Positions 1,923-30,431 of a stretch of DNA of 35,739 nucleotides are shown piece after piece. Source of the stretch: a virus; IMG/VR virus record IMGVR_UViG_3300020182_000093, positions 1 through 35,739 of that record; one strand, 5' to 3'. The position numbers were made by a program, and so were the translations under genes. The notes beneath the pieces are model-generated. The model did not search any database and had not been told where the DNA came from. It saw only the letters and a list, made by a program, of their open reading frames with translations. Each line of letters opens with the position of its first letter. The stretch's first letter is position 1.

Positions 1923-3431
1923 ATGGCTATATTTAGAGGTGATGGTGGTGCTGGTGACTCCAATACGGATGCCACTATATCTGCTGTTACAGCCCAAGCT
2001 GCGATAGCTACTACGAAAGCAAGTGATGCAGCCGCTAGTGCAGTAGATGCGGCTAACTCTGCTACAACTGCTACAACTAAAGCTGCTGAAGCAAGCACAT
2101 CTGCTACTAATGCGGCCAACAGCGCCACAGGTGTTGCAGCCTACGCAACAGCAGCAGAGAACTCAGCAACTGCCGCAGCAACATCAGAGACTAACGCAGC
2201 CACTAGTGCTACAAACGCTGCTACAAGTGCTACGGCAGCCAGTGCCTCTGAGACAGCCTCAGGAGCCTCTGAGACGGCTTCCGCTGCAAGTGCTACCACT
2301 GCTACTACTAAAGCCTCAGAAGCCGCTACAAGCGCAACCAGTGCGTCTAACAGCGCTTCTACGGCAACGACTAAAGCATCAGAGGCTTCGACTAGCGCCA
2401 GCAATGCCTCAACCTCCGAAAGCAATGCTGCTACATCGGCCTCTAATGCTTCCTCTTCAGCCACTGCTGCTAGTGATTCAGCTACAGCATCTGCTGCTTC
2501 AGCCAGTGGTGCAGCTACTTCAGCCACCAATGCTGCTGCAAGTGCTACAGCGGCTGCTGCTTCAGAGTCCTCTGTATCTGCGGATGCTAGTGCAGCGGCT
2601 ACCTCAGCTACTAATGCAGCCAACAGCGCCACAGCAGCGTCAGGCAGTGCTACAACGGCTACGACCAAGGCTAGTGAGGCAGCTACATCAGCCACTAATG
2701 CAGCGACTAGCGCGTCTACAGCTACTACTAAGGCTGGCGAAGCAAGCACCAGTGCTGCCAATGCAGCAAGCTCTGCTACCAGTGCAGCCTCCAGCGCAAC
2801 TACAGCAACTACCAAGGCTGCTGAAGCAGTAACCTCTGCAAGCAATGCAGCAACCTCTGCAAGCACTGCAACTACCAAGGCATCAGAGGCAAGCACCAGC
2901 GCAACTAACGCAGCTACTAGCGAGACTAACGCAGCATCAAGCGCCACAGCAGCAGCAGGGTCAGCTAGTACAGCGACTACTAAAGCATCTGAGGCAGCTA
3001 CCAGTGCTACTAACGCAGCCTCTAGTGCTTCTACAGCGTCTACACAGGCAAGCAATGCAGCCACTAGCGCTACAGCAGCACAGACAGCAGAGACCAATGC
3101 AGAGACTGCTGAGACTAACGCTGAGACTGCTGAGACTAACGCAGCCTCTAGTGCTACAGCAGCAGCCAGCAGTGCTACAGATGCAGCTAACAGTGCTACA
3201 GCGGCAGCAGCGGAGTTGTCTACAGCAGCTCTAAAGGCTAATAACTTGTCTGACTTGGCTAACGCAGGCACAGCTAGAACTAACTTAGGACTAGGTACTG
3301 CTGCTACTACAGCGGCTACGGACTATGCTACAGCAGCACAAGGCACAAAGGCTGACACAGCTTTACAATCTAACTCAACACTTAACGCAGACAACATGAC
3401 TACTGGTACGCTGAACGGCGGCACATACTAA
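1923..3431 (+). CDS. Ala/Ser/Thr-repeat fibre protein (putative tail fibre)
   Basis: The protein has 502 residues. After a short head (MAIFRGDGGAGDSNTDATIS), residues about 20-435 are a low-complexity array of variants of ATTKASEAATSATNAA and SATAAAS with no Cys and almost no aromatic residues. Such arrays are typical of long coiled or fibrous shafts in phage tail fibres. The last 70 residues (NLSDLANAGTARTNLGLG) match the common short-fibre or fibre-end motif. The ATG at 1923 has a TAGGAGC ribosome-binding site. An upstream in-frame extension to 1800 lies inside the capsid gene and across the terminator, so I did not use it. The C-terminus LNGGTY resembles the TGGSY end of the small protein at 11492. 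The receptor is unknown. Confidence 0.7.
   Translation: MAIFRGDGGAGDSNTDATISAVTAQAAIATTKASDAAASAVDAANSATTATTKAAEASTSATNAANSATGVAAYATAAENSATAAATSETNAATSATNAATSATAASASETASGASETASAASATTATTKASEAATSATSASNSASTATTKASEASTSASNASTSESNAATSASNASSSATAASDSATASAASASGAATSATNAAASATAAAASESSVSADASAAATSATNAANSATAASGSATTATTKASEAATSATNAATSASTATTKAGEASTSAANAASSATSAASSATTATTKAAEAVTSASNAATSASTATTKASEASTSATNAATSETNAASSATAAAGSASTATTKASEAATSATNAASSASTASTQASNAATSATAAQTAETNAETAETNAETAETNAASSATAAASSATDAANSATAAAAELSTAALKANNLSDLANAGTARTNLGLGTAATTAATDYATAAQGTKADTALQSNSTLNADNMTTGTLNGGTY
1985..3235 (+). repeat. Degenerate Ala/Ser/Thr codon repeat tract
   Basis: About 1.25 kb is built from short degenerate units of GCT/GCA/GCC, AGC/TCT and ACT codons, such as GCTACTACTAAAGC and AGTGCTACTAACGCAGC. 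Units differ mainly at synonymous positions. That suggests ancient expansion by unequal recombination followed by drift. The tract is prone to misassembly with short reads, so its true copy number may differ from what is shown. Confidence 0.8.
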
Positions 3432-5476: not shown

Positions 5477-5794
5477 ATGGCAGTAACTTGGACAATCTCA
5501 ACCCTAGAGCGCAACACATCAGATGACGGTGTAGTTGTAGCACACTGGCGCGCATTAGACAGCGAAGTCGTAGGCGATGACACACACTCAGGCAGCAGCT
5601 ATGGCACTTGTGGCTTTACCCCTGACAGCTCTGCTGACGGCTACACAGCCTATGCAGACATCACAGAAGCTCAGGCTATTGGCTGGGTGAAGGACTGCAT
5701 GGGTGAGGAAGCAGTAACAGCACTTGAAGATTCTATCGCTGCACAGATTGCTGACAGCAAAACTCCTGCTGTAGCTACAGGAACACCTTGGTAA
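5477..5794 (+). CDS. Conserved small phage protein (105 aa, DUF7936-like)
   Basis: The protein begins AVTWTISTLERNTSDDGVVV, followed by AHWRALDSEV, an Asp/Ser/Gly-rich middle and ITEAQAIGWVKDCMGEEAV; it ends GTPW. From memory this layout matches a widespread short family found next to phage fibre genes (I believe DUF7936), whose function is unknown. The stop codon overlaps the next start as TAATG, so translation of the following membrane-protein gene is probably coupled. A virion or fibre accessory role is inferred from position only. Confidence 0.65.
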   Translation: MAVTWTISTLERNTSDDGVVVAHWRALDSEVVGDDTHSGSSYGTCGFTPDSSADGYTAYADITEAQAIGWVKDCMGEEAVTALEDSIAAQIADSKTPAVATGTPW

Positions 5795-5988
5795 TGGACA
5801 TTATATTCAAAGCCCTAAAGTCTAAGACTGTACAGTTCTCAATTGCTCTAGCCATCCTCAGCATACTGCAAGGCTATGTAGGCTTCTTGCCTGTATCACC
5901 AGCAGGACAAGCTGTTGTTGGGTGTATCATTGCATCTTGTGTAACTGTGCTGCGCTTTGTGACTGTGGCTCCAATAGCGGAGAAGTAA
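5794..5988 (+). CDS. Small membrane protein, possible holin-like (64 aa)
   Basis: The sequence starts MDIIFKALKSKTVQFSIALA, followed by ILSILQGYVGFLPV, a Pro/Ala/Gly turn and VVGCIIASCVTVLRFVTVAP. This gives two hydrophobic segments, at about residues 13-29 and 36-55. It opens a block of four membrane proteins. The ATG at 5794 overlaps the previous stop codon; a TTG two codons upstream is less likely. The size, two spans and neighbours suit a holin or other lysis helper, but I recognise no family signature. Confidence 0.65.
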   Translation: MDIIFKALKSKTVQFSIALAILSILQGYVGFLPVSPAGQAVVGCIIASCVTVLRFVTVAPIAEK

Positions 5989-6447
5989 ATGATTGCGGAA
6001 ATCTCAGCAGTTGTAGGTGTACTAAAGGCTCTTAACGACGGCATCAAAACCGTCAAAGAGTCTGGAGACCACTTGTCAGGTCTGTCGGGATTGTTCACTA
6101 GCCTCACTGACAGCAAGGTAGCTGTAGAGAGCATTGAAGAGGCTACTAAGGCAGGCGAGCACATACTAACACAGGAAGAGGCTCTGGAGCTTGCATGGGC
6201 TAAGAACGCCATACGCGAGCAGGAGAAGGAGCTAAAGAAGATAACGCCTAAGCTAGTCTGGCGTGACATGTTGATGATACAGAACAAGTCTATTCTAGAC
6301 CACAAGCATAAGCTAGAGAAGGCTAGGCTGGCGAAGCTAAAGAAGCAACGTCAGATAGGTGACGCAGTAAAGAACATAGGTGCTACTATAGTAGTTCTTG
6401 CTGCGTTTGCTGGCTCATACTGGTTATTTACCACAGGAATAATTTAA
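5989..6447 (+). CDS. C-tail-anchored membrane protein of unknown function (152 aa)
   Basis: The first 125 residues are hydrophilic and helical, with a strongly charged stretch (KARLAKLKKQRQIGDAVK) just before one C-terminal hydrophobic span (IGATIVVLAAFAGSYWLF, about residues 129-147). There is no signal peptide. The gene starts immediately after the previous stop and overlaps the next ATG (TAATGG). Its place between small membrane proteins suggests a lysis or envelope role, such as a holin partner. The domain order does not match a classical spanin, so function is unassigned. Confidence 0.7.
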   Translation: MIAEISAVVGVLKALNDGIKTVKESGDHLSGLSGLFTSLTDSKVAVESIEEATKAGEHILTQEEALELAWAKNAIREQEKELKKITPKLVWRDMLMIQNKSILDHKHKLEKARLAKLKKQRQIGDAVKNIGATIVVLAAFAGSYWLFTTGII

Positions 6448-6632
6448 TGGAAGAGTCTACTAAAGACATACTGGACGTTGCCGCTGCATCTACGGCAATA
6501 ATGTCACTAGCTGCTTGGTTGCCACCTACAGCGTCACTGCTGACTATAGTGTGGTTAGGTATTAGGATATATGAGTCAGAGACTGTGCAGAAGGTAGTGC
6601 ATGGCAAGAAACAACTTGACAAACAAGACTAA
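6447..6632 (+). CDS. Small single-span membrane protein, holin-like (61 aa)
   Basis: The protein begins MEESTKDILDVAAASTAIMS. A long hydrophobic helix (about residues 16-42, SLAAWLPPTASLLTIVWLGI) is followed by a charged tail (ETVQKVVHGKKQLDKQD). Acidic N-terminus, one span interrupted by a proline pair and basic C-terminus resemble small phage holins found beside 3-TM holins. The last codons contain the TTGACA element of the promoter at 6616-6644. Confidence 0.65.
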   Translation: MEESTKDILDVAAASTAIMSLAAWLPPTASLLTIVWLGIRIYESETVQKVVHGKKQLDKQD

Positions 6633-6644
6633 ATAGTGTATAAT
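6616..6644 (+). promoter_or_regulatory. Perfect sigma70 consensus promoter inside the lysis block
   Basis: TTGACA at 6616-6621 and TATAAT at 6639-6644 are separated by exactly 17 bases, the full bacterial consensus. The predicted transcription start is near 6651, which is 4 bases inside the following gene. The promoter would therefore serve the collagen-like and tail genes downstream, or a shortened holin. Confidence 0.7.
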
Positions 6645-6646
6645 AT

Positions 6647-7030
6647 ATGAGTATTTTAAATAGTTTTATAGGGCCGGTGACTGGACTTTTAGATAAGTTC
6701 ATAGAAGATAAAGATAAAAAAAATGCTATCGCCTTTGAACTATCTACTATGGCTGAGAAGCATGCTCAAGAACTACTTAAGGGTCAGTTAGAAGTCAACA
6801 AGACTGAGGCTGCACATAAGAGTTTATTTGTGGCGGGATGGCGACCTGCTATAGGATGGATATGTGGACTAGCTCTATTCTATTCTACTATCCTAGCCCC
6901 CATCTTAAGTATCTGGTTTACTGTTCCTCCTGTTGACAGCGCATTACTTACTAGCGTGTTAATGGGTATGTTAGGACTAGGCGCTATGCGTACAGTAGAA
7001 AAGTCTAAAGGCGTACAGAGAGAACGATAA
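6647..7030 (+). CDS. 3-TM holin (GTA-type holin family)
   Basis: The 127-residue protein begins [20 protein letters not shown] and has a Lys/Glu-rich helix to about residue 60. It continues with [20 protein letters not shown] and two further hydrophobic segments ending near residue 115. The phrase [11 protein letters not shown] is the hallmark of the three-span holin family PF11351, which makes holes in the inner membrane so that the endolysin can reach the cell wall. The matching endolysin candidate is the M15 peptidase at 30057, far away in the packaging block. No Shine-Dalgarno sequence precedes the ATG at 6647. Its stop overlaps the next start (TAATGG). Confidence 0.85.
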
Positions 7031-9315
7031 TGGCGAGAGGCCCTAAAGTAAAAGCTGGTAGTGTTCGTATTCCTGTTAGGGAAGAGAAGCGTCCTGTTGT
7101 AACCCCTATACAGCCTGCAGGCTTTAATATTCCTAGAGCGCAGCCTGTTGTAGCTACTGCTGCGCAGCCAGCAGGTTTTGACATGCCTAGAGCGCAGCCT
7201 CCTGTGTTCTCAGACTTTAGCACTTTAGCCGATACTGAGCTTACTAATGCGTTAGCTGCTTTTGAACCAGAAACTTTTGAGACTGAACAAGAGGCTGAAG
7301 AGCTGTTAAACATAGAGGGTTACGAGCCAACTTCTTTGATGACTTATGGCCCAAATGATGAAAAGTACTTTCAAGGTATTAAAGCTCAAGACTATGGCGC
7401 TGCCCCTACTTACGAAACTCCTGACGAAGCGTTAAGTAACTACGGTGCGTTTACTGAAGAAGTAAATAATCAGATGTTGCAGACAGCTTCAAAGTATAAC
7501 TACAATAATTTTGATCCCGGTGATGTTGCTAGAGCAGGTTTTTCAGGGATTAATAGTCCTGCTTCTGAAGCTGCTTCTAATAGAGTATCTGAGTATCTTA
7601 GACAAAACCAAATACCTCCCTCTATAGAAGTAGATGGTCAAACCTTATATTTTACTTCAGGTTTTGGAGAAGATACTTTAGCACAGACACTAGGTGACGA
7701 CTACAGTGCTTCAGGGTCTTACCAGTCTTATGGCCCAGCGGGTACTTACTCTACGGTCTACATACCTTCTGAGAGTGTCTTTGCAGGTATTAACCCCTAT
7801 CTAAGAGCAGCCCTTGGTATGGCCACTGGCGGTGCTTCAGAAGCTTTCATTTCAGCAGCGCGTGGTTTAAGCGGAGAAACGCTACACGCTAGTGACTGGA
7901 TGAACTTAGCTACTACTGGTATGAACATTTACCAAGACCAAGCTGCTCAGGCTGCACAAGTTGCGGGAGGAGGAGCCGCACAAACAACAGCGGGTACTCA
8001 AGCAGGTTTATCTGCAGGAGACATTGCCGTTAATGATGCAATAGCAAGCGGAGCTATAGATGTCAACGACATTAACGCAGCAGCTCAAGCTCAACAAATT
8101 GCTGATGCAGCTAATGCAGCCGCAGCTACTAATGATTTTTTATTAACAGTAGGACAAGTAGGTTTAGATGCTTTTACTGGAGGCCAAGACCCCTTTACTT
8201 TAAACTACGGACAACTAGCATCAGATGTTTTGTCAGACATGGGTACAGGCGTAGACCCTCGTGTTTACTTTGGAGCGCCCACTACTGATGATGGTTTGTT
8301 TGCAGGCACTAACGGCTCTGGTCGGTTTGCGGAAAACTTAGGCACTTTAGGAAATCTTCTTACAGGCTTAGGCGGCTTAGGTGATTTGCCTGAAGGTCGT
8401 AATCTTTCTGATCTAATAGAACTAGCTACAAGCCAAGGCCGTGACGGTGTAGACGGAGCTGCTGGAGCTGCAGGAGCTGATGGGCGTGACGGAGTAGATG
8501 GCGCTACAGGAGCTACGGGCGCTACAGGAGCTACGGGCGCTGCAGGAGCTACGGGCGCTGCAGGAGCTACGGGCGCTGCAGGAGCTGCAGGAAGAGATGG
8601 CACTGATGGACGTGATGGTGTAGACGGAGCAGCAGGACGTGATGGTGTAGACGGCGCTCAAGGTATTCAAGGTGAACGTGGAGCCACAGGAGCTACAGGA
8701 GCTACAGGAGCGCAAGGTGAACGGGGGGAGCGCGGAGAAACAGGAACCTTTGATGCTTCAGCTCTTGAGGGACTAGCTACATCAGAAGAACTCGCTGACC
8801 TGTCTACTCTTAGTAATGAAGATGTTGTTACTGCTTTGGAAACTTATGGCGGTCTTACTACTGCTGACGCTACAGAGTTGTTGGAAGATGTTTCTACTTT
8901 AAGTACCGAAGACTTACAGGATGCTTTTGAAAACTACGGCATGTCAACCGAAGAGTTTACAGGTGCGTTAGGTGAGTTCCAAGAAGCCTTTGGTGAAGGC
9001 TTAGGTGGTATAGCTTCAGGCATTGAAGGTTTAGGTACAGGACTTGAGGGTCTTGGTGAAGCATTTGGTGCAGGTGTAGAAGGATTAGGCCAAGGAATAG
9101 AAGGCTTAGGGGAAGCTCTAGGCACAGGGCTGGGAGGTTTAGGTCAAGGTTTGTTTGGTTTAGGTATAGGCCAAGCACAGACAGCTGAACAACAAAGACT
9201 AGCAGCACTCATGCCTGATAGGACAACCGCTGGTTTGTTTGAACCATTTAGATTTAAAACTCAAGTACAAGACACACAAGAACTTGTTAAATTATTACAA
9301 AGAAGGAATGTCTAA
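7030..9315 (+). CDS. Large virion protein with collagen-like domain
   Basis: The 761-residue protein has four regions. Residues 1-75 are Pro-rich with a repeated unit ([24 protein letters not shown]). Residues about 75-465 are a mixed region with Ala-rich helices. Residues 470-574 are an uninterrupted Gly-X-Y collagen-like stretch of about 35 triplets ([19 protein letters not shown]). Residues about 656-716 are a Gly-Leu-Gly heptad-like repeat ([18 protein letters not shown]). Collagen-like segments in phages form trimeric stalks. The gene lies directly before the tail adaptor and nozzle genes, so a fibre, appendage or head-tail decoration role is likely. The last 45 residues ([20 protein letters not shown]) may be the virion anchor. 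No enzyme motif was recognised. Confidence 0.75.
8509..8580 (+). repeat. Four 18-bp tandem repeats in the collagen-like region
   Basis: Four copies of GGAGCTACGGGCGCTRCA, starting at 8509, 8527, 8545 and 8563, encode GATGAT or GATGAA units. Near identity at synonymous positions shows recent tandem expansion, so stalk length probably varies between strains. Confidence 0.9.
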
Positions 9316-9959
9316 TGACATACTTACAGTTAGTCAATAGCGTACTACGTAGGCTACGTGAAGACGAAGTAACCTCAGTCTCTCAAAACAGCTACTCCAA
9401 ACTTATTGGAGAGTTTGTTAATGACGCTAAACGCTCCGTAGAAGATGCTTATGACTGGACAGCTCTACGTACTACACTGACTGTAACCACAGACGATACA
9501 ACCTTTAACTATGTGTTGACTGGTTCACAGAACAGGATGAAGCTGTTGGATGTTATTAATGACACCTCAGACTTCTTCATGCAGTACCGTCCTTCTCGCT
9601 GGATGGACAACGCTTTCTTGATTGAGACACCGCCTCTAGGCTCTCCACAGTTCTACAGCTTCAACGGTGTTAACGCTGCTGGTGACAACGCTGTCGATGT
9701 GTATCCTAAGCCTGACGGTGTGTATCAGCTACGGTTTAACGTGGTGCTACGTACAGCAGACTTTACAGAAGACACAGAGACTTTGGCAGTACCTTCGTCA
9801 CCCGTTGTACAGCTTGCTACAGCACTGGGTGCTAGAGAGCGTGGAGAGACTGGCGGTACAAGTGCAGCAGAGTTGTTTGGTTTGGCTGACAATACTTTGT
9901 CCGATGCTATTGCTATAGATGCGTCACAACATCCTGAAGAAACTATCTGGTATTCTTAA
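9315..9959 (+). CDS. Tail tubular protein A-like head-tail adaptor
   Basis: The 214-residue protein begins [20 protein letters not shown] and has NSYSKLIGEFVNDAKRSVED followed by an aromatic AYDWTALR. This is the typical N-terminus of T7 gp11-like adaptor proteins, which dock below the portal and hold the nozzle. The middle (QYRPSRWMDNAFL) and the end (ALGARERGETGGTSAAELFGLA) also fit that family. It overlaps both neighbours at TAATG-type junctions. Identity is supported by the following gene being the nozzle protein. Confidence 0.8.
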   Translation: MTYLQLVNSVLRRLREDEVTSVSQNSYSKLIGEFVNDAKRSVEDAYDWTALRTTLTVTTDDTTFNYVLTGSQNRMKLLDVINDTSDFFMQYRPSRWMDNAFLIETPPLGSPQFYSFNGVNAAGDNAVDVYPKPDGVYQLRFNVVLRTADFTEDTETLAVPSSPVVQLATALGARERGETGGTSAAELFGLADNTLSDAIAIDASQHPEETIWYS

Positions 9960-26754: not shown

Positions 26755-26783
26755 ATTATATCAAGTATTGAAGAGTACGTCAA
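26755..26783 (-). promoter_or_regulatory. Sigma70-type promoter for the SSB-helicase-polymerase operon
   Basis: On the minus strand TTGACG (26783-26778) and TATAAT (26760-26755) are 17 bases apart. The predicted start is near 26748, giving an AT-rich leader of about 80 bases before the SSB gene. The promoter overlaps the 3' end of the upstream 59-residue gene, so it adds replication transcripts independent of the micro-gene operon. Confidence 0.85.
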
Positions 26784-26940
26784 ACTCTTTCTCACTTAAT
26801 TGCCCTATGCTGTCATACATGGCCTCATCGCTATGAGACAGGCAGACATTACACAGGTCTAAATGTATCCCGGTCTCCTTGTCTACCTTCTTAAGTTCAT
26901 ACTCGTTCAGGATAACGTCACACGCTTTGCATCTACTCAT
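26761..26940 (-). CDS. Small zinc-finger-like protein (59 aa)
   Basis: The reading frame encodes MSRCKACDVILNEYELKKVD, then KETGIHLDLCNVCLSHSDEA, ending EFDVLFNT. Two CxxC pairs (C4/C7 and C30/C33) are spaced as in a single treble-clef or zinc-ribbon knuckle. The start overlaps the upstream stop by 8 bases. The last codons include the TTGACG of the next promoter. Such small zinc proteins in early phage operons may bind host factors, but this one has no known target. Confidence 0.75.
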   Translation of the reverse strand: MSRCKACDVILNEYELKKVDKETGIHLDLCNVCLSHSDEAMYDSIGQLSEKEFDVLFNT

Positions 26941-27157
26941 CTTGGAATGCCTCTCTGTATTGTCTAGTCATATCGTCATAGGGATTGCTATAGTACTCAT
27001 CACGCATCTGCTTGGTGACTCTCTGTGTTAGCTCTGAGAGCGTCATGCAGTATACCTGATACTCGACTAGCTCGTCGACCATAACGTGCGCCTGTGGCTC
27101 AATCCAGTCATTCTGGGTGTACTCATAGCCCAGCATCTCCTCTTTTATTCTACTCAT
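26933..27157 (-). CDS. Hypothetical early protein (74 aa)
   Basis: The protein begins MSRIKEEMLGYEYTQNDWIE, then PQAHVMVDELVEYQVYCMTL, and ends in a charged helix rich in Tyr, Asp and Arg. There is no membrane span or metal motif. I chose the ATG at 27157 because a GAGG site lies 9 bases upstream and it overlaps the stop of the previous micro-gene. In-frame starts at 27166 (ATG) and 27172 (TTG) also exist. Function unknown. Confidence 0.65.
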   Translation of the reverse strand: MSRIKEEMLGYEYTQNDWIEPQAHVMVDELVEYQVYCMTLSELTQRVTKQMRDEYYSNPYDDMTRQYREAFQDE

Positions 27158-27272
27158 AGTAGTCATCCTCAATTGTGTTGTCTAGTGCCGGGTCTTCCAG
27201 CGTCAGTGCAGTATACACCAGCCAAGCCACAAAGGAAACAAATAAAGCACCAGCTATTGTAAATAAAATCAT
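27150..27272 (-). CDS. Single-span membrane micropeptide (40 aa)
   Basis: The frame encodes MILFTIAGALFVSFVAWLVY followed by an acidic tail (LEDPALDNTIEDDYYE). The first 22 residues form one clear hydrophobic span and the tail would be cytoplasmic or periplasmic depending on topology. It overlaps the genes on both sides, as expected for a real member of the operon. The upstream leader carries AGGAAGTTTACGA. Confidence 0.6.
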   Translation of the reverse strand: MILFTIAGALFVSFVAWLVYTALTLEDPALDNTIEDDYYE

Positions 27273-27469
27273 TCGTAAACTTCCTCATAAACCCGACCGT
27301 ATGATACCAGACACAGGGGCAGATGTAAAATGACACCCTGAAAGGGCATGGTCTCTGTATTGCCTGTGTTTGTATTGTAGACCCAAACCGGGCGGCTGTC
27401 TGGGAACTCAAGATCAAAACCTACACCCAGTCTGTACTCTACACTCAATACCCTATTAAATATTATCAT
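27269..27469 (-). CDS. Hypothetical early protein (66 aa)
   Basis: The protein begins MIIFNRVLSVEYRLGVGFDL, continues EFPDSRPVWVYNTNTGNTET and ends SYGRVYEEVYE. It looks like a small beta-rich soluble protein. The ATG at 27469 has AGGCG about 7 bases upstream and overlaps the previous gene's end by 14 bases. A longer form from 27505 or 27508 would overlap that gene by about 50 bases. Confidence 0.6.
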   Translation of the reverse strand: MIIFNRVLSVEYRLGVGFDLEFPDSRPVWVYNTNTGNTETMPFQGVILHLPLCLVSYGRVYEEVYE

Positions 27470-27614
27470 TGGTTTTCGCCTGTTGTTTTTCCAGCCATTT
27501 GTCATCACCTATTATATCCGCCAGTGCCTCATCAATCTCCCATTGCTGCATGGGTGGATACTCATGGTCATCCAATAGATGCTCGTCGCCATGATACTCG
27601 TTGTTTCTAGTCAT
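27456..27614 (-). CDS. Acidic hypothetical early protein (52 aa)
   Basis: The frame encodes MTRNNEYHGDEHLLDDHEYP, then PMQQWEIDEALADIIGDDKW and a Lys/Asn end. It is strongly acidic with several His, and has no Cys and no membrane span. It overlaps the stop of the 38-residue gene (ATATGA) and the start of the next. Acidic early phage proteins can mimic DNA or inhibit host enzymes, but nothing specific supports that here. Confidence 0.6.
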   Translation of the reverse strand: MTRNNEYHGDEHLLDDHEYPPMQQWEIDEALADIIGDDKWLEKQQAKTNDNI

Positions 27615-27727
27615 ATAAAATACTCCAGTATGTTGTTAGTCATTAGCCAGAACACGCCTTTGTGTGCTGCTATTACAATGGCTGTCAGTGTAGACCAGCC
27701 CACTACCTCCGCTATGATATTATCCAT
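27611..27727 (-). CDS. Small hydrophobic micropeptide (38 aa)
   Basis: The frame encodes MDNIIAEVVGWSTLTAIVIA, then AHKGVFWLMTNNILEYFI. Residues 4-30 form one amphipathic to hydrophobic helix that could lie in or on the membrane. A GGGGTGA site lies just upstream. Start and stop both overlap neighbours, which supports it as a gene despite its size. Confidence 0.5.
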   Translation of the reverse strand: MDNIIAEVVGWSTLTAIVIAAHKGVFWLMTNNILEYFI

Positions 27728-27807
27728 GATGTCACCCCGTAGCCTATAAAGAAACCCACAGTGAAACCGATTGTACACCACTTGGCGTACCAGTACAAGT
27801 CATTCAT
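27712..27807 (-). CDS. Single-span membrane micropeptide (31 aa)
   Basis: The frame encodes MNDLYWYAKWCTIGFTVGFF, then IGYGVTSWIIS. Aromatic residues cluster at the N-terminal membrane interface and a Gly-rich hydrophobic span follows. GAGGGCC lies about 8 bases upstream of the ATG. It starts inside the last codons of the 84-residue gene and ends inside the start of the 38-residue gene. Confidence 0.5.
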   Translation of the reverse strand: MNDLYWYAKWCTIGFTVGFFIGYGVTSWIIS

Positions 27808-28054
27808 GGTCTGGCCCTCGCTCTACCATTAGCTGCAGCGCAGCTGCCCGGTCATCGTCCAGACTGCGGATCAAATCCTGCAGCACCTGCGTTTTGACCT
27901 CATTAAATACATTATCAGAGCTGACCATATTATCCAACTGTGCCTGCAGCTCTTCTATCCAATCACCTGCCCGTTGAAAAAACTCAGGGGCATCGCCATT
28001 GTGTAGTGCCGTTCTGGTGGTACTTATCTCCACCCAATCGTCCCATTTGCTCAT
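27800..28054 (-). CDS. Hypothetical early protein (84 aa)
   Basis: The protein begins MSKWDDWVEISTTRTALHNG, contains a helix DWIEELQAQLDNMVSSDNVF and ends RGPDHE. It is acidic, soluble and helical, with no recognised motif. Its ATG overlaps the stop of the 66-residue gene (TAATG) and an AGGAGG site lies upstream. Confidence 0.7.
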   Translation of the reverse strand: MSKWDDWVEISTTRTALHNGDAPEFFQRAGDWIEELQAQLDNMVSSDNVFNEVKTQVLQDLIRSLDDDRAAALQLMVERGPDHE

Positions 28055-28254
28055 TACGCTGCCTCCTTTTTTGGTGGAAAACCCAAAGCTTCTCGCGTGT
28101 ATCTATCACCGTATTCTGGATAGTCTACGCGTACCTGTCGCATCATATCGCGCCACGGTTGTGCGGCTTTATGGCCGTCCTGTCTATATGAGTTTCTATA
28201 CATTCTTGAGAGTTTAGACAGTGTTTCCCTATATCCTGCATAACTTAATTCCAT
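28054..28254 (-). CDS. Hypothetical early protein (66 aa)
   Basis: The protein begins MELSYAGYRETLSKLSRMYR, then NSYRQDGHKAAQPWRDMMRQ, and ends PPKKEAA. It is basic, with many Arg and Tyr, and helical; nucleic-acid binding is conceivable but there is no motif to prove it. Translation is coupled at both ends (TAATG upstream and downstream), and GGAGGCGG stands before its start. Confidence 0.7.
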   Translation of the reverse strand: MELSYAGYRETLSKLSRMYRNSYRQDGHKAAQPWRDMMRQVRVDYPEYGDRYTREALGFPPKKEAA

Positions 28255-28406
28255 TACTCCGCCTCCTTTGGCATTTGTTCCGTGATTGTATCACATAAAT
28301 CTAGCGCCTGCTGCATTAATTCCTGTGCCTGATCCTCGCGTCCAGACACCAGCATAACCGCCATTAGTTCAAGTTTAAATCGGATTACTTCGCCTTTGGT
28401 TTTCAT
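28254..28406 (-). CDS. Hypothetical early helical protein (50 aa)
   Basis: The frame encodes MKTKGEVIRFKLELMAVMLV, then SGREDQAQELMQQALDLCDT and ITEQMPKEAE. It is a two-helix protein with a leucine/methionine face, suited to dimer formation. A near-perfect ribosome-binding site (GGAGGTGACACA then ATG) suggests strong translation. It ends overlapping the next start. Confidence 0.7.
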   Translation of the reverse strand: MKTKGEVIRFKLELMAVMLVSGREDQAQELMQQALDLCDTITEQMPKEAE

Positions 28407-28636
28407 TGTGTCACCTCCAATAACTCATTAATCACTGACTGGGGCACTTCCACTGCGTCACAACCCTGTAGCCATTTGTTGATATGCTTGGTGGTGGTGA
28501 CACTGTACTTGGTTGCTGTGCGTACCAGCGCACCCATATCTGTACGTGCAGCCACTGGGGTCTCATAGCTAAAGAATACCTGTACCTCGCCCATGTCCAG
28601 CTCAGTCATGTTACTTCCTAATTGCTTAAGTTTCAT
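28403..28636 (-). CDS. Conserved small phage protein (77 aa)
   Basis: The protein begins MKLKQLGSNMTELDMGEVQV, then FFSYETPVAARTDMGALVRT and TKYSVTTTKHINKWLQG. The segments GSNxTEL, FFSYxTPVAA and KYSVTTTKHINKWL recur in small proteins of many podophages of aquatic bacteria, whose role is unknown; they are often found in early regions. AGAGGTAACACAAG precedes the ATG. Confidence 0.8.
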   Translation of the reverse strand: MKLKQLGSNMTELDMGEVQVFFSYETPVAARTDMGALVRTATKYSVTTTKHINKWLQGCDAVEVPQSVINELLEVTQ

Positions 28637-28711
28637 CTTGTGTTACCTCTATTGGTTTAGTTGGTTTAATAATGCCCACTGTACGCCAATGGACATGATA
28701 AATCAACTACT
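28637..28711 (-). other. Short non-coding gap in the micro-gene operon
   Basis: These 75 bases hold only the ribosome-binding site of the downstream gene (AGAGGT). I found no convincing promoter hexamers or hairpin on the minus strand. Confidence 0.5.
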
Positions 28712-28852
28712 TTAAAAATCTTCCTTGAGTATACGTCTAGCTTCAACCGCATCGCGAGATCGTAGGGCCTCGCATAGTTCCTCGCTTTCAAGTGCTATTT
28801 GTGGGTCTATGGAATAAAAACCGCATAGCTCTATAAATTCTGATTTACTCAT
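28712..28852 (-). CDS. Hypothetical early protein (46 aa)
   Basis: The frame encodes MSKSEFIELCGFYSIDPQIA, then LESEELCEALRSRDAVEARR and ILKEDF. It is acidic and helical. GGGAGTAATTTAAA precedes the ATG, which begins one base after the stop codon of the upstream 28-residue frame. Function unknown. Confidence 0.65.
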   Translation of the reverse strand: MSKSEFIELCGFYSIDPQIALESEELCEALRSRDAVEARRILKEDF

Positions 28853-28853
28853 T

Positions 28854-28940
28854 TTAAATTACTCCCATCATTTTAAGATTCATCCAAAGGAGTGCCACGA
28901 ATACCAGTATTGCAATCTGTACGCCATCTTGTGCTGTCAT
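28854..28940 (-). CDS. First leftward gene: membrane micropeptide (28 aa)
   Basis: The frame encodes MTAQDGVQIAILVFVALLWM, then NLKMMGVI. One hydrophobic span covers residues 7-20 with a Lys behind it. AGAGG stands about 8-12 bases upstream of the ATG. Only its size makes it doubtful; its place at the head of an overlapping gene ladder and good ribosome-binding site support it. Confidence 0.5.
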   Translation of the reverse strand: MTAQDGVQIAILVFVALLWMNLKMMGVI

Positions 28941-29069
28941 CTTGTATGCCTCTGTGTGTTTGTTGTCTTGATGGGGCCATTGTACCGGGATTACCAACGT
29001 TGTAAAATTTATTTAAACTATAATGCTTTGGACTATTATTGATCTGGTGAATACCTTACTGCCTACCTT

Positions 29070-29089
29070 TATACATACGCGTGCGCGCG
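29070..29089. other. 20-bp alternating purine-pyrimidine tract
   Basis: TATACATACGCGTGCGCGCG alternates strictly, ending in a CG-rich half. Such DNA can adopt the left-handed Z form under negative supercoiling. It also contains an ACGCGT site and overlapping GCGC sites. Confidence 0.7.
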
Positions 29090-29144
29090 AGTACCATAGT
29101 TCAAGACTTGTGTCAACCTGTGTATTCATACAGTGGTGGTTGCT

Positions 29145-29161
29145 CCATAGGTATCCTATGG
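29145..29161. repeat. Perfect 7-bp inverted repeat in the origin region
   Basis: CCATAGG and CCTATGG flank TAT, making a 17-bp dyad. It could be a dimeric repressor site or a small hairpin. Confidence 0.7.
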
Positions 29162-29218
29162 CATACCCACACTTAACCCTGTGGAATCCCATGCAATACC
29201 CGTGCCAACGTGGCAGCC

Positions 29219-29259
29219 TGTGGATAACTTGTGGATGCTTGTGTATAACCTGTGGATAA
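29219..29259 (-). promoter_or_regulatory. Phased array of four DnaA-box-like nonamers
   Basis: Read on the minus strand: TTATCCACA (29227-29219), GCATCCACA (29238-29230), TTATACACA (29248-29240) and TTATCCACA (29259-29251). Three of the four fit the DnaA consensus TTWTNCACA exactly. Start-to-start distances of 11, 10 and 11 bases place all boxes on one face of the helix. Confidence 0.8.
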
Positions 29260-29312
29260 ATAGACCCCCGGGGGGGCCTGACGTGGCCAGCAGCTTGTCT
29301 TAGTACCCGCAG

Positions 29313-29368
29313 GTATACAAAATAGTAGCAATTTGGAAAAAAGAGTGTATAATTACATTTACTTATGA
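29313..29368. other. AT-rich stretch, candidate DNA unwinding element
   Basis: This AT-rich block, including ATTTGGAAAAAAGAG and TATAATTACATTTACTTATG, begins about 55 bases to the right of the DnaA-box array. That is the relative position of unwinding elements in bacterial origins. Confidence 0.5.
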
Positions 29369-29492
29369 CTACCTGTGCATGCCATAACTCCTTGTAATAC
29401 CTGTGTATTCCTAAACTGACACCAGTATAGCCAAAAGCTATTAAAGGGACGGCCCTTATGTATAAATATGTAGACATTAGTGAAGAAAAGAC

Positions 29493-29521
29493 TTGACTTT
29501 TGGTTAAAAATATGGTATAAT
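29493..29521 (+). promoter_or_regulatory. Main late promoter (sigma70 type)
   Basis: TTGACT at 29493-29498 and TATAAT at 29516-29521 have a 17-base spacer. Transcription would start near 29528 and read into small terminase, leaving a leader of about 130 bases that contains two CTTAAGTATCCTTAAG copies. Confidence 0.9.
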
Positions 29522-29559
29522 TTATAGTATACTAAAGAAGATAAAGATTACCCCGCGCC

Positions 29560-29575
29560 CTTAAGTATCCTTAAG
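29560..29575 (+). repeat. 16-bp leader repeat, copy 1
   Basis: CTTAAGTATCCTTAAG, identical to 29628-29643. It lies downstream of the predicted late transcription start, so it would be present in the mRNA leader. Confidence 0.9.
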
Positions 29576-29625
29576 CATCGTTAGGATTGATCTTTTAATA
29601 ATAATTAAAGAAACTAACTAAAGTA

Positions 29626-29645
29626 TACTTAAGTATCCTTAAGTA
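29626..29645 (+). repeat. 16-bp leader repeat copy 2 within a perfect 8-bp inverted repeat
   Basis: TACTTAAG and CTTAAGTA flank TATC. The hairpin loop would be TATC, and the dyad lies 14 bases before the small terminase start, where it could affect ribosome access or bind a regulator. Confidence 0.85.
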
Positions 29646-29659
29646 CTAAGGGAAATACA

Positions 29660-30064
29660 ATGAATACTAAAGAACCTAAGGGTAGTCAGCCCGCAAAGCG
29701 GGTGGGCAGACCAAAGAAAACAGCAGTTGTGTCAAAAACTAAGGGCAAACGTAACTCAGTAGGGCGGCCCAAGGGTGACGCAGCGGTCATTAACGAATAC
29801 AAGGCTAGAATGCTGGCATCTCCTAAGAGTAGGAAGGTGCTAGATAGTATATTGTCAGCAGCCTTGGACGATGACCACAAGAATCAAGCAGCAGCATGGA
29901 AGCTTTGCATGGACAGGTTGTTGCCTGTTAGTTATTTTGAGAAGGATAAGGCCAGCGGAGGCAAGAGTGCCATCAACATCTCTATTACAGGTGTTGGCGG
30001 AGAGACTACAGTCATATCCGGCGGCCAAGAAGAACCCATTGAAGGGGACTATACAGATGTATGA
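29660..30064 (+). CDS. Putative small terminase subunit
   Basis: The 134-residue protein carries two AT-hook-like motifs at the basic N-terminus (RVGRPKK and SVGRPKG). A helical middle (INEYKARMLASPKSRKVLDS, then ALDDDHKNQAAAWKLCMDRL) and a Gly/Glu-rich tail follow. The middle is the usual pattern of phage small terminases that bind the packaging site and regulate the large subunit. It is the first late gene, two genes before the large terminase. AAGGGAAATACA precedes the ATG. Assignment is from motif and order, not full-length recognition. Confidence 0.7.
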   Translation: MNTKEPKGSQPAKRVGRPKKTAVVSKTKGKRNSVGRPKGDAAVINEYKARMLASPKSRKVLDSILSAALDDDHKNQAAAWKLCMDRLLPVSYFEKDKASGGKSAINISITGVGGETTVISGGQEEPIEGDYTDV

Positions 30065-30431
30065 TATAAATCAAGACTTAGATTACTTTACTAGGGAAGA
30101 GTTTGCTTGTCAGTACACTGGCGAGAATGAGATTAGTGACAGGCTGTTGCTGAAGTTAGATTTGTTACGTGCTAGATGTGGTTTCCCCTTCGTTATTACA
30201 AGTGGCTACAGATCAGTAGACCACCCCATAGAAGCAAAGAAGGAGACACCCGGAACTCATGCCCAAGGCATCGCAGCAGATATTAAAGTCAATGACGGTA
30301 CACAACGGTTTAGGATTGTTCAAGAGGCTATCTCGATGGGCTTTTCAGGAATTGGAGTTGCTAGTAGCTTTGTGCATGTTGACATCCGCGACCTTGACGG
30401 TAATGAGCCTCCTGTAATGTGGACGTACTAG
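30057..30431 (+). CDS. Peptidase M15 family endolysin
   Basis: The 124-residue protein has the M15 zinc-peptidase residues in order: SGYRSVDHPIEA, then GTHAQGIAADI with H68 and D75, and FVHVDIR with H107. These enzymes cut peptidoglycan cross-link peptides (D,D- or L,D-carboxypeptidase or endopeptidase) and serve as compact phage endolysins. No signal peptide is present, so release depends on the holin at 6647. The ATG at 30057 overlaps the terminase small-subunit stop by 8 bases; an upstream extension from 29871 runs in the wrong frame of that gene. Placement between the two terminase genes is uncommon. Confidence 0.85.
   Translation: MYDINQDLDYFTREEFACQYTGENEISDRLLLKLDLLRARCGFPFVITSGYRSVDHPIEAKKETPGTHAQGIAADIKVNDGTQRFRIVQEAISMGFSGIGVASSFVHVDIRDLDGNEPPVMWTY

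Follow-up and report, generated by a model that had tools for sequence, protein, structure and literature searches.

A ladder of thirteen small genes before the replication genes of a podovirus-like phage, probably an early accessory operon

Thirteen tiny, mostly overlapping reading frames lie between positions 28940 and 26761 on the minus strand of a 35.7-kb viral record, possibly a fragment, the whole of which (35,739 nucleotides) we analysed and call here the window. Are these frames genes and, if so, what kind of block do they form? We consider it probable that the ladder serves an uncultured, podovirus-like tailed phage, probably a marine one, as its early accessory operon, made of coupled small proteins that combine a core with swapped, host-directed genes. 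The frames measure, in order from 28940, 28, 46, 77, 50, 66, 84, 31, 38, 52, 66, 40, 74 and 59 codons, and are named g01 to g13.

28940-26761, minus strand, ladder of 13 small frames, 2.2 kb
28854..28940, minus strand, g01, 28 aa, predicted single-pass membrane micropeptide MTAQDGVQIAILVFVALLWMNLKMMGVI
28712..28852, minus strand, g02, 46 aa, charged, rare
28403..28636, minus strand, g03, 77 aa, phrog_5643 member
28254..28406, minus strand, g04, 50 aa, predicted soluble
28054..28254, minus strand, g05, 66 aa, predicted soluble
27800..28054, minus strand, g06, 84 aa, acidic
27712..27807, minus strand, g07, 31 aa, predicted membrane micropeptide with a conserved GxxxGxxxG glycine zipper
27611..27727, minus strand, g08, 38 aa, predicted membrane micropeptide, 16-nt overlap with g07
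27456..27614, minus strand, g09, 52 aa, acidic
27269..27469, minus strand, g10, 66 aa (not 79), predicted all-beta, start corrected by comparison
27150..27272, minus strand, g11, 40 aa, predicted N-terminal membrane segment and acidic tail
26933..27157, minus strand, g12, 74 aa, near-universal core protein
26761..26940, minus strand, g13, 59 aa, near-universal, four cysteines (CxxC...CxxC)

Leftward of the ladder are genes for a single-stranded DNA-binding protein (SSB, gp2.5-like), a primase/helicase, a DNA polymerase, an exonuclease, an endonuclease and a ribonucleotide reductase, while endolysin, terminase and portal genes lie rightward on the opposite strand. A probable lysis cassette at 5788-7030, consisting of a small transmembrane (TM) protein, a second protein whose C-terminal segment is hydrophobic and, at 6647-7030, a GTA_holin_3TM member, is far from the endolysin gene (29871-30431).

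The sequence-only reading had held that overlapping micro-genes almost fill the minus strand here, and about 96% of the bases are indeed covered. The overlaps of 1-20 bases that it described are found at 10 of the 12 junctions (1, 1, 4, 4, 4, 8, 8, 8, 14 and 16 nt); one other junction is a 1-nt separation, and the last is the sole real gap (28637-28711, 75 nt). SD-like GGAG, GAGG or AGGA motifs are located 5' of most starts. When both a start codon and an SD-like motif were required, tiling of 26761-28940 covered 84% of the region with seven overlaps of 1-20 nt, against 21% ± 9% (maximum 49%) and a mean of 0.1 overlaps in dinucleotide-preserving shuffles, and 8% coverage on the antisense strand. 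All thirteen frames exist as first listed except that g10, initially taken as a 79-codon frame with a GTG start (27269-27508), is really 66 codons long and begins at the ATG at 27469. We rejected the longer frame, whose N-terminal extension is unconserved, is broken in relatives and holds internal stops in four copies; homologous copies are intact in 31 of 31 cases from the ATG, versus 16 of 19 for the 79-codon version.

Relatives were retrieved from public viral contigs via the adjoining SSB and primase/helicase genes; up to 112 of them entered the comparison of selection and intactness, and tblastn copies were sought in 114 non-redundant loci. Every ladder frame has copies in these loci, all in the expected orientation, and internal stops were confined to the four copies of the 79-codon g10. 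Copies that align at the nucleotide level over at least 90% of a gene are intact as well (55 of 55 for g12), barring the false g10 extension and single-base indels near gene ends at the junctions, shown for g06 and g09; in g06 the indels are confined to the final codons, where the gene overlaps g07. We found no interrupted aligned copy of any correctly delimited frame, the few indels being located at gene ends.

Pooled dN/dS of the ladder genes among the viral-contig relatives is 0.06-0.27, whereas in the other two frames of the same strand the ratio is at least about 0.7 and stops are numerous, g02 excepted (two distinct sequences only). One antisense frame shows a low ratio yet holds stops, and this low ratio is a shadow that third-position changes commonly cast. 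Selection was assessed by a binomial test, with an assumed transition/transversion ratio of 2, on disjoint pairs of sequences to avoid counting relatedness more than once. The synonymous excess was significant in 12 of the 13 genes, from P=3e-4 (the 28-codon g01) to P<1e-100 (g12), with omega between 0.11 and 0.31: about 0.3 for g01, 0.14 for g03, 0.31 for g04 (P=1e-5), 0.20 for g05 (P=7e-9), 0.12 for g06 (P=1e-16), 0.20 for g07 (P=2e-9), 0.19 for g08 (P=4e-15), 0.11 for g09 and 0.18 for g11 (P=3e-6). The 46-codon g02 gave P=0.17, with too few relatives. The Ka/Ks check proposed with the original claim, run on each frame, thus places 12 of 13 under purifying selection, those of 28, 31, 38 and 40 codons included, and neither disrupted frames nor an absence of codon-level selection was found. 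Since relatives keep every frame intact and protein-level selection acts on nearly all of them, the ladder is a block of genuine genes, of the already familiar early accessory kind.

The presence of each gene was counted in 50 complete loci, each with both control-region and SSB matches; these counts are approximate because a few of the loci are near-identical. The genes g12 and g13 (49 of 50 loci each) and g10 (48 of 50) are near-universal. Intermediate presence was recorded for g09 (36), g03 (34), g07 (31), g08 (26) and g01 (17), and the remaining genes (g02, g04, g05, g06 and g11) occur in 2-11 of the 50 loci, with g11 in nine; g02 was seen in only 2-3 relatives, with its frame intact in them. 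Gene order is collinear in all loci but one, and single genes are gained or lost while their neighbours are retained. A uniform gene call on 49 loci gave about 12 genes per locus, with a median of 65 aa; these genes fall into 103 families, of which 51 are singletons. By this comparison the ladder appears as a conserved 3' end (g10, g12 and g13) preceded by an exchangeable mosaic cassette. Looking at two families, F25 and F15, we observed that in some relatives the cassette includes a gene of the Gp88 family (E=2e-19) and that another cassette family of relatives is MazG-like by eye, though it has no Pfam match.

None of the ladder proteins could be assigned to a family with known function by Pfam, PHROG or fold searches. 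The Pfam scan of ten of them (all but g01, g02 and g08) returned only sub-threshold chance matches, and PHROG scans of g10 and g12 relatives gave nothing convincing. The g03 protein belongs to phrog_5643, a family without known function, aligning over almost its whole length (residues 1-74 on profile positions 1-75 of 79, E=2.4e-26); its relatives occur in 58 annotated phage records, including phages of Prochlorococcus, Pectobacterium and Cronobacter, and its model is a confident small beta/alpha fold (pLDDT 91). The AlphaFold2 model of g10 is all-beta (pLDDT 84.5). Fold searches of g10 (PDB and viral) and g03 (PDB) produced no match with E <= 0.001; the names ranked highest are chance. All four cysteines of g13 are invariant in 36 sequences, and because of this pair of CxxC motifs the protein probably binds zinc.

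The peptides of 28, 31, 38 and 40 residues (g01, g07, g08 and g11) had been described as hydrophobic with one likely membrane segment each, and by hydropathy these properties are retained in relatives; we infer membrane insertion from this hydropathy. The hydrophobic core of g01 is retained, as is the GxxxGxxxG spacing of g07 in most variants; such a pattern favours helix packing. In the uniform gene call, only 0.28 of the g07 family passed a simple TM filter. By analogy, modulation of the host at the membrane by these peptides is plausible; the host takeover, superinfection exclusion or altered membrane enzymes suggested by the sequence-only reading would be candidate functions. A bolder proposal, that the four micropeptides and those of relatives are lineage-specific early membrane modulators, including an oligomerising 31-aa glycine-zipper peptide, which target inner-membrane proteins of the host or block rival phages, we put forward only tentatively. 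A literature search for small membrane exclusion proteins gave nothing useful.

Could one or more of the micropeptides instead be a lysis protein, that is, a holin, pinholin or antiholin? Pinholins are reported to have a glycine zipper, as g07 does, the peptides are suitably short and hydrophobic, and the nearby endolysin is of the M15 type. That gene, however, is on the opposite strand from the ladder; the GTA_holin_3TM member (E=2.7e-16) sits together with another small TM protein in the distant cassette; and the micropeptides lie ahead of the replication genes and are missing in many relatives. They neither lie in the lysis cassette nor are the sole holin candidates. A lysis role is unlikely because a holin-family member and the endolysin are found elsewhere.

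Less probable still is that the small frames serve mainly as translated leaders or couplers, which would hold ribosomes on the mRNA while the peptides themselves do little. The tight junctions, with their overlaps of 1-16 nt, are what such couplers would show, but selection acts at the amino-acid level in 12 of the 13 genes, hydrophobic cores are conserved and residues invariant, and individual genes come and go while neighbours remain. That the ladder is a set of chance open frames in a compact region can practically be dismissed: several frames do fall under 50 codons, below common annotation cut-offs, but shuffles and the antisense strand tile poorly, and intact frames with strong codon-level constraint contradict this for 12 of 13.

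The preferred reading, an early accessory operon, also draws on promoter-like sequences at both ends of the ladder.

28941..29655, no strand, divergent control region, apparently non-coding, between the ladder and the rightward terminase, lysis and structural genes
28979..29006, minus strand, putative early promoter TTTACA-16-TACAAT just 5' of g01 (10/12 match)
29493-29521, rightward, promoter-like TTGACT-17-TATAAT in the control region
26755..26783, minus strand, sigma70-like promoter TTGACG-17-TATAAT within the end of g13, into the SSB and replication genes (11/12 consensus)

In 27 relatives, column identity in the control region is about 0.7-0.95 over the terminase-proximal two thirds and 0.2-0.45 beside g01. 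Of 107 relatives, 88 have a motif similar to the g13 promoter no more than 260 nt 5' of SSB. For the candidate early promoter, the match in this genome is weak and the position varies among relatives, several of which have a 12/12 site in this region; a second candidate for the ladder, at about 29116, has a conserved TTGACA and, 17 nt on, TAC/TAT after TGG. An early operon is consistent with these promoter-like sites and with the ladder's location ahead of the replication genes. On the rightward side, a conserved motif around CTTAAGGATACTTAAG occurs twice (29553-29575 and 29625-29651), 3' of the promoter at 29493-29521 and before a small gene at 29660; this pair could possibly be an operator for a regulator. 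The control region also holds three DnaA-box sequences TTATNCACA at 29219-29259, in the same orientation and 11 and 21 nt apart. Most relatives with this region covered have 2-7 DnaA boxes at the corresponding place, often spaced by multiples of about 11 nt, and HTVC104P and HMO-2011 have no such cluster in the parts scanned. Such a cluster would not be expected in a phage that encodes its own primase/helicase and polymerase; it could reflect a host-DnaA origin, DnaA titration or regulation. Our literature search on DnaA-dependent podovirus origins gave nothing useful, and a search for the host with the primase in bacterial and archaeal genomes found none.

In the mechanism that we propose, host sigma70 RNA polymerase would transcribe the ladder leftward from the divergent control region, and the thirteen small proteins would be translated separately with translational coupling, as suggested by the overlapping start and stop codons. 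The near-universal core (66, 74 and 59 aa) would probably aid the switch to replication and transcription, whereas the remaining genes, swapped between lineages, would most likely be directed at host targets. For the four single-pass micropeptides, the most likely location is the inner membrane, where they would bind membrane proteins, and g07 probably self-associates via its glycine zipper. Early timing, coupling, membrane insertion and host-directed function are what we infer for the operon; this functional reading is plausible, resting on position and analogy.

The nearest annotated relative by primase (51% identical) is the Pelagibacter phage HTVC104P (MN698243). Its primase gene is preceded by about 37 genes, most of them small, so that the ladder's layout is not unusual: in both phages tightly packed or overlapping small genes directly precede SSB, primase and DNA polymerase, and the structural genes occupy the opposite strand. 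We also found that gaps left between the annotated early genes of HTVC104P contain hydrophobic ORFs of 43, 35 and 32 codons that its annotation lacks (151-282, 3112-3219 and 9284-9382, in the numbering of its sequence, L129). With a primase identity of 51% and a portal only about 25% identical over a third of its length, our phage is at most a distant relative. Core replication genes of the HMO-2011 type are present (PHROG matches for the primase/helicase and the Pol A-type DNA polymerase), whereas the portal shares 21-26% identity with HMO-2011-type phages over 33-62% of its length. The best reading of these comparisons is a phage lineage with HMO-2011-type traits, in which primase and gene order agree and the portal is very distant. 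The small-gene region differs from the early region of HMO-2011-type phages in that g12 and g13 have no relative in the annotated phage collection by tblastn; blastn of the ladder region against annotated phages likewise gave no match.

Since HTVC104P has such a gene run and unannotated micro-ORFs, the ladder's kind is already known, and its classical functional example is the host takeover module of SPO1. That module comprises 26 genes (37-60), mostly small, that act early on host processes, and eight of those tested in the host attenuate growth (PMC6873191). The ladder resembles it as a cluster of small genes before the replication genes, with no homology claimed; the SPO1 genes were tested in the host, while the ladder is known here from its sequence. 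The ladder is thus a known kind of module whose members are mostly undescribed. Its codon-level evidence shows that phage genes down to 28 codons are real and conserved, and easily missed by length cut-offs, and it yields a concrete set of small protein families, mostly with no function described so far, that can be taken directly to expression tests.
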